NCBI RefSeq assembly: GCF_037996645.1
Contig: NZ_JBBMXV010000003.1
Location: 496,001-560,000 of the forward strand
DNA: 64,000 bases
Direction of reading: 5' to 3'
Source of the DNA: Halalkalicoccus tibetensis
GTDB taxonomy: Archaea > Halobacteriota > Halobacteria > Halobacteriales > Halalkalicoccaceae
Within the stretch, counting starts at the first letter, position 1, and the number at the start of each line of letters is the position of its first letter. Position numbers and translations under genes: made by a program. Shown here piece by piece: positions 59,315 to 60,245 of the stretch. The notes under the pieces are model-generated. The model worked only from the letters and a program-made list of their open reading frames with translations. It had not been told where the DNA came from and searched no databases.

Positions 59315-59470
59315 CTACGCCGATTCAGTATTATCATGTGCCGCTTTCCCATTGATGACTTCGCCTCTCTCCTGACAGTCTAGACATCCGAAAACCTCGC
59401 CATCGTTTGATCCGAAAACCTGCCGGAAGCGATCAGTAACATGTCCACCACATGAGCCACAGGTAGCCAT
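59315..59470 (-). CDS. Small zinc-finger protein, DUF7563-like (51 residues)
   Basis: A mini-protein below the usual length cut-off. From ATG 59470 it reads MATCGSCGGHVTDRFRQVFG, then SNDGEVFGCLDCQERGEV and a short polar tail. CGSC and CLDC, 25 residues apart, make a zinc ribbon typical of the haloarchaeal DUF7563 family. A TATA-like ATTTATATC lies about 27 bases upstream on this strand, fitting a leaderless transcript. It ends near 59315, clear of the propeller gene. Confidence 0.75.
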   Translation of the reverse strand: MATCGSCGGHVTDRFRQVFGSNDGEVFGCLDCQERGEVINGKAAHDNTESA

Positions 59471-59500: not shown

Positions 59501-59766
59501 TGTTTGCAGTCTATGCTACGGACTCGCCCGATGAGATAGTGATTGTGGTTGCGATTGGATACTCTCTACTGGCTATCAGTTATACTACTAGTGCTATGAT
59601 CCCCAGCAGTAATGGTACTCCGCTGAGGACAGGAGCTCAGAAATGGCGCACAGCGATAAGGTGGAGGCGGAGGATGAGCCTTAAGCACGGGCCGATGCCG
59701 ACCAAGCAACCACTTGCGAATGGCAAACCCGTGTCGCTGTGCGCTACCAAATATTGGATACTGTAA
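59500..59766 (+). CDS. Doubtful open frame divergent from the zinc-finger gene
   Basis: A frame of 88 codons starts with a short hydrophobic stretch (IVIVVAIGYSLLAISYTTS) and then becomes basic and unstructured. The second half runs through the strongly folded RNA-like segment at 59644-59746, so coding is unlikely there. It may be a remnant of a membrane protein. Low confidence. Confidence 0.2.
   Translation: MFAVYATDSPDEIVIVVAIGYSLLAISYTTSAMIPSSNGTPLRTGAQKWRTAIRWRRRMSLKHGPMPTKQPLANGKPVSLCATKYWIL
59644..59746 (-). ncRNA. Candidate structured RNA with three-way junction
   Basis: A 103-base segment folds with a 13-bp closing stem (59644-59656 with 59734-59746, one G-U pair), arm 1 of 5 bp (59657-59661 with 59679-59683, 17-base loop) and arm 2 of 6 bp (59686-59691 with 59728-59733), which continues as 4 bp (59696-59699 with 59722-59725) and 4 bp (59703-59706 with 59713-59716). 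Arm 2 stacks directly on the closing stem. GC content is far above the flanks. I favour the minus strand because a TATA-like run (ATTTAAGTATTTA) lies 25-30 bases upstream of 59746 on that strand; arm 1's loop then reads CTCATCCTCCGCCTCCA, rich in anti-Shine-Dalgarno CCTCC. The strand is not proved. Confidence 0.5.
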
Positions 59767-59957
59767 ATACTTAAATTTAATTACTGAAAAGGATATTAGA
59801 GGGAGCGGGGTTTACGAGCCACTCAACCACTTACAGTGATTGTAGGGATCTGTTGTTGACTATGTGAGAGGCCACCGATAGCTACTCGTACAAGATGGGT
59901 GTGTGTCTATTTCCCTTGTCCTATAGTATACCATCCTGCATTTCTAGGGCGAGCTAT
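59747..59957. other. AT-rich spacer between two folded segments
   Basis: No gene. It holds the putative promoter of the RNA at 59644-59746 (about 59763-59780, minus strand). The rest is unremarkable. Confidence 0.4.
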
Positions 59958-60100
59958 ATGGATAGTATAGAATCCATCGGCCAACAGATGTAATAATATT
60001 CGGTGCATAGGGGAATGTGGGGTGAAAGCCCCGACGCGTTGGTTGCGCGTGCATGTCATCCGTCTTAGACGGACGCGGCAGGTGTCCATTCACCCGCCGC
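59958..60100. ncRNA. Folded GC-rich block with multiple hairpins, possible RNA or mobile-element end
   Basis: Starts with ATGGAT/ATCCAT (59958-59963 with 59972-59977), then four hairpins: GGGG/CCCC at 60019-60022 and 60029-60032; ACGCG/CGCGT at 60034-60038 and 60046-60050; a 6-bp TCCGTC/GACGGA stem at 60059-60064 and 60068-60073; and GCGGC plus GGTG at 60075-60084 with CACC plus GCCGC at 60091-60100. The arrangement recalls, from memory, the right ends of haloarchaeal IS200/IS605-type TnpB elements, whose RNA ends in such hairpins. No tnpB is near, so this may be a solitary remnant or a miniature element. Confidence 0.4.
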
Positions 60101-60245
60101 TATTCGTACCACAACTATCATACAGTACTCACTTTTGAACTGAGCCGAAATGATTGATCAAACTCTGATTGCTACCGTCTCTATAGTGTATTTACAACAT
60201 CTTCTGAGTAGAAAGATTATTTACCAGACAATCAATGAATTTTAT

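Follow-up and report, generated by a model that had tools for sequence, protein, structure and literature searches.

The element at positions 59644 to 59746 of the window, the 64,000-nt stretch of Halalkalicoccus tibetensis DNA analysed here, is probably a minus-strand small RNA gene that is transcribed independently, a member of a lineage-specific, multicopy Halalkalicoccus family in which a helix would serve as the handle for a trans-acting payload. Seven copies of the family share a conserved TATA-like box, a paired closing helix and a variable interior, and they indicate the strand of the RNA. From the comparison of these sequences we propose that the conserved TATA box would direct transcription from a start immediately ahead of the closing helix, and that the 11-19-bp helix would seal the RNA and enclose an interior of 60-75 nt. 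The helix would be a common handle, putatively for stability and/or the binding of a shared protein, while the interior would be a copy-specific payload, putatively acting in trans by pairing with targets of its own.

The element and its predicted fold

The features of the locus, in window coordinates, are as follows.

59644..59746, minus strand: predicted small RNA gene of ~100 nt, expected to begin a few nt ahead of 59744
59771..59782, minus strand: TATA-like box AATTAAATTTAA, the core ATTTAA being invariant in 7 of 7 copies
59734..59744, minus strand: closing helix, 5' strand GCGCACAGCGA, with the CACAG-Y-GA core common to all copies (from fold and alignment)
59646..59656, minus strand: closing helix, 3' strand UCGCUGUGCGC (from fold and alignment)
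59686..59733, minus strand: long stepped arm, 8+4+5 bp predicted, within the variable interior and not kept in paralogues
59665..59681, minus strand: short arm of 4 bp, copy-specific, its loop containing the two CCUCC motifs
59470..59315, minus strand: DUF7563 zinc-finger-like ORF of 51 aa, downstream of the element

The original prediction, a structured minus-strand RNA that is unannotated and has a TATA-like box of its own, is borne out: no Rfam family was matched and homologues with compensating changes exist. Folding recovers the nested structure described at these coordinates on both strands. The plus-strand minimum free energy (MFE) structure (-47.7 kcal/mol, z -3.69) combines 12 nested outer pairs with an arm of 5 bp and a second, stepped arm. 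That of the minus strand has an 11-bp closing helix, a long arm of 8+4+5 bp and a short arm of 4 bp (-46.6 kcal/mol, z -3.74, with 1 of 200 shuffles equally good). The outer helix is thus present, but the 13 bp first given for it become 12 nested pairs in the MFE structure, and one of the 13 is a G-U. The description of the segment as GC-rich in AT-rich DNA applies only locally (~0.6 GC against 0.2 just upstream), as GC content elsewhere is ~0.45-0.5. On its own, the inverted repeat is no rarer than chance: about one perfect 11-bp inverted repeat at a spacing of 40-100 nt is expected in 64 kb, the mean in a simulation being 0.98. What stands out is the folding energy alone (z ~ -3.7). We take the element as real because of its set of relatives, not because of the inverted repeat alone. 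No clear terminator was found 3' of it. At window positions 60001-60110, the AT-rich intergenic DNA contains another GC-rich stretch, which forms several hairpins on either strand (~-50 kcal/mol for 151 nt); Rfam gave nothing above threshold for it, and the loci compared contained no relative.

A family of seven copies restricted to Halalkalicoccus

The family spans three Halalkalicoccus species, with three copies in the window's genome, two in H. jeotgali B3 and two in H. paucihalophilus DSM 24557. We call the window element WIN1, and the other copies of its genome, both within 7.4 kb of it, WIN0 (L011 2844-2967, minus strand) and WIN2 (L011 1525-1655, plus strand). HJa and HJb lie on plasmid 1 (NC_014298) and the chromosome of H. 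jeotgali, and HPa and HPb on contigs C13 and C11 of H. paucihalophilus. BLAST within the genus gave two partial matches, HJa and HPa, spanning the 3' arm and the promoter, which on inspection proved to be complete, their arms the same and their interiors different; the annotation has no gene at the HJa element. A two-arm pattern search recovered these two along with a second copy in the window's genome, ~7 kb beyond WIN1. Covariance model R1, built on four members, found the third local copy, WIN2 (E 0.009), and a weak match in H. paucihalophilus, HPb (E 1.4), and model R2, built on six, found HJb as a clear further copy (E 1.8e-8). HJb is the syntenic orthologue of HPb, at 85% identity, and the weak match is therefore confirmed independently.

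A covariance search of haloarchaeal genomes had been proposed with the original prediction, and homologues with compensating changes were found, all of them within Halalkalicoccus. Model R3 (seven members) returned no further copies from 391 class-level haloarchaeal genomes under stringent filters, with few candidates scored per genome, and scanning 40 relatives under more permissive settings gave none above chance outside the genus. Several classes of more distant match were rejected. BLAST matches of the 'b' copies in other genera are fragments of 18-39 nt with E ~0.001-0.05, which we treat as chance; pattern matches in IMG/VR have chance-level model scores and no promoter part; and the few arm-pattern matches inspected in non-haloarchaeal genomes had no promoter, the remainder being about as many as expected by chance or belonging to a single repeat family within one MAG. 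A phage or plasmid origin was likewise rejected, the matches being limited to plasmid 1 of H. jeotgali and chance fragments. Of seven Halalkalicoccus genomes searched, four lack the element, so it would be either dispensable or mobile.

A conserved TATA-like box and a covarying closing helix

The TATA-like run that had been placed upstream of the first stem base on the minus strand is there, at 59782-59771. The first T of TTTAA precedes the helix's GCAC core by 30-33 nt in 7 of 7 copies, and mean pairwise identity over the seven copies is 93% for the TATA box and 38% for the spacer between it and the helix. The distance from TATA box to start in haloarchaea fits a transcription start just before the closing helix. 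Haloarchaeal promoter elements as described in PMC4983044 match the ATTTAA box as a TATA box. Like haloarchaeal intergenic sRNAs, the family has a predicted promoter of its own, in the form of ATTTAA at a near-fixed distance in every copy.

The closing helix, of 11-19 bp, contains the near-invariant core CACAGYGA / UCGYUGUG in all copies, and its arms have a mean pairwise identity of 83-86% over the seven. Across 15 helix pairs in seven copies, 93.3% of cells pair and four pairs show two-sided changes, in a count whose cells, from seven sequences of three species, are not independent events and which is biased by the discovery of WIN2, HPb and HJb with models that score pairing and of two other copies by exact arm match. 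Two observations fall outside the bias of the pairing models: the WIN2 helix extends to 19 bp against the 11 bp modelled (z -11.2), and HJa and HPa, found by BLAST, supply a G-U at the outermost pair. The helix covariation score is 0.34; shuffles give 0.21, none of the 500 reaching the observed value, and slid controls give 0.12 at most.

The 11 core pairs also assign the strand. Read on the minus strand of the window, 67 of their 77 cells are Watson-Crick, 10 are G-U and none is mismatched, and a plus-strand reading turns the ten G-U cells into A-C mismatches. Because only the minus strand gives G-U without mismatch, we assign the element to that strand and favor an RNA over a DNA dyad. A regulatory dyad at the DNA level, with two operator half-sites downstream of the promoter bound by a dimeric protein, would account for the inverted symmetry and its near-invariant 8-nt core. 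It is nonetheless highly improbable, given that the one-sided differences are compatible with G-U on one strand in 10 of 10 cells, that the 70-nt interior is kept between species, and that no gene follows the copies at a constant distance or strand.

A variable interior that is kept between matched copies

The interior, of ~60-75 nt, has a mean pairwise identity of 34% between paralogues, which is near background. Between matched cross-species copies, identity is 81% for HJa/HPa and 88% for HJb/HPb, and HJb and HPb share an inner hairpin of 6 bp whose loop is identical in the two. WIN0 and WIN2 fold as one long rod and HJa and HPa have other arms, so the three-way junction originally put forward is particular to WIN1 or at most loosely common. 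The two CCTCC motifs described earlier do occur on the minus strand of WIN1, but the anti-Shine-Dalgarno role suggested for them is rejected, as CCTCC is confined to this copy and HJa and HPa instead carry two GGAGG. We also rejected a small protein, since frames differ between copies, with stops or frameshifting indels and no common frame. As with haloarchaeal intergenic sRNAs, the element lies between genes and has no conserved coding frame.

The main rival explanation retains the same RNA gene and has it act through the constant helix only, which would sequester a double-strand-binding or regulatory protein as a decoy or scaffold, with the interior as filler. Conservation of the core in sequence as well as pairing in all copies would suit such a role, as would the low identity of paralogue interiors. 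Bacterial 6S RNA and CsrB can in principle titrate proteins, and the Halalkalicoccus RNA would resemble them in action if its closing helix were a protein decoy; the Rfam scan of the window gives no match to RNAs of this type. We consider the decoy unlikely, however, because the interiors of HJa/HPa and HJb/HPb are more conserved than their flanks, and filler would not retain the inner hairpin and loop that HJb and HPb share. A constant handle joined to a variable payload is the best-supported reading: the constancy of the helix at the sequence level suggests a shared binding partner, and the conservation of the interior between matched copies suggests copy-specific jobs. Regulation in trans by the RNAs of this family is plausible.

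Boundaries and genomic neighbourhood

In both cross-species pairs the conserved block consists of the promoter and the RNA. Alignment quality climbs at the promoter and drops within a few tens of bases past the helix end, and identity in the flanks falls to ~40-50%. The 'a' copies have no common neighbours. Synteny does hold for the 'b' copies of H. jeotgali and H. paucihalophilus. The three local copies have ATP-grasp-like, DUF1616, glycosyltransferase-like and sulfatase-like ORFs nearby; two large proteins, of which one matched asparagine synthase, lie beside HPa, and a PadR regulator and a VapC-type pair beside HJa. Just upstream of WIN0, a predicted lipoprotein (L011 3181-3660, minus strand) consists mostly of acidic DPAADDEEDP-like repeats. 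The 'b' RNA adjoins a Tat-signal-type protein that has a second, inverted copy 75-94 kb away, with 98% identity within H. jeotgali (491568-492233 minus and 567206-567868 plus on G001:C1; in H. paucihalophilus, 386-1051 minus and 94468-95133 plus on G003:C11), an arrangement that looks as if the intervening segment could invert.

These surroundings bear on two further alternatives. The DUF7563 ORF follows WIN1 on the same strand, and the element might then be a cis-acting 5' leader of this gene. However, the ORF has its own TATA-like TTTATATC ~30 nt before the ATG, its transcript looks leaderless, and the other copies have no close same-strand gene; a leader is accordingly very doubtful. A mobile-element end had been named in the original prediction as the alternative to a regulatory RNA. 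In a miniature mobile element the helix arms would be terminal inverted repeats, consistent with the several copies, the non-syntenic 'a' copies, the patchy distribution, and the presence of a TnpB-type transposase 0.6 kb away from one of the copies in H. paucihalophilus. We disfavor this origin and regard it as quite improbable. Conservation takes in a promoter that lies outside the inverted repeat and is kept at near-fixed spacing, while interiors differ (34% identical), where a MITE or transposon end would be bounded by the inverted repeats and have a homogeneous interior and a target-site duplication; the 'b' copy is syntenic; no target-site duplication was visible by eye at the element's ends or in its flanks; and the arm differences are only G-U of one polarity or compensated changes.

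Relation to known RNAs

The claim that no named RNA has such a shape agrees with a search of 4227 Rfam models at gathering thresholds, which gave no match in the window. A permissive Rfam search produced only a chance-level match to STnc390, located elsewhere, and ARAGORN found no tRNA or tmRNA in the window. A limited search of the open literature revealed no haloarchaeal RNA family of this build and, for small RNAs of Halalkalicoccus, no account of such an element.

The closest known systems are the haloarchaeal intergenic sRNAs, such as sRNA132 of Haloferax volcanii (collections in PMC3956466, PMC6560208 and PMC4983044). The Halalkalicoccus element resembles them in being intergenic, ~100 nt long, lineage-restricted and structured, with its own TATA-like box, and it appears to belong to this known kind as a new family. 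It differs in being multicopy, with a constant closing helix and a changing interior. The ~108-nt expansion segment of Halococcus/Halalkalicoccus 5S rRNA (PMC7812874) is similar to WIN1 in genus, size and its combination of a short hairpin with a long stepped arm. In contrast to that segment, which sits inside 5S rRNA, WIN1 has its own TATA-like box and no sequence similarity to it. We rejected the segment as a source, having found no significant similarity to the 5S loci of the genus. Halalkalicoccus 5S rRNA genes (L110 and L113, from position 1501) visibly bear the ~108-nt segment of PMC7812874.

Implications

More tentatively, the family could represent a modular archaeal RNA system, in which a single promoter-plus-handle cassette, bound by a dedicated protein, would be combined with different payloads for different targets and be duplicated and moved among loci of the genus; we see this as possible, if doubtful. 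To our knowledge, defined families with covarying structure are rare among archaeal small RNAs. The natural paralogues and orthologues of this family in cultured species mean that handle and payload could be separated by swaps of helix and interior. If a protein binds the constant helix, the family would offer a starting point for the study of haloarchaeal RNA-based regulation.
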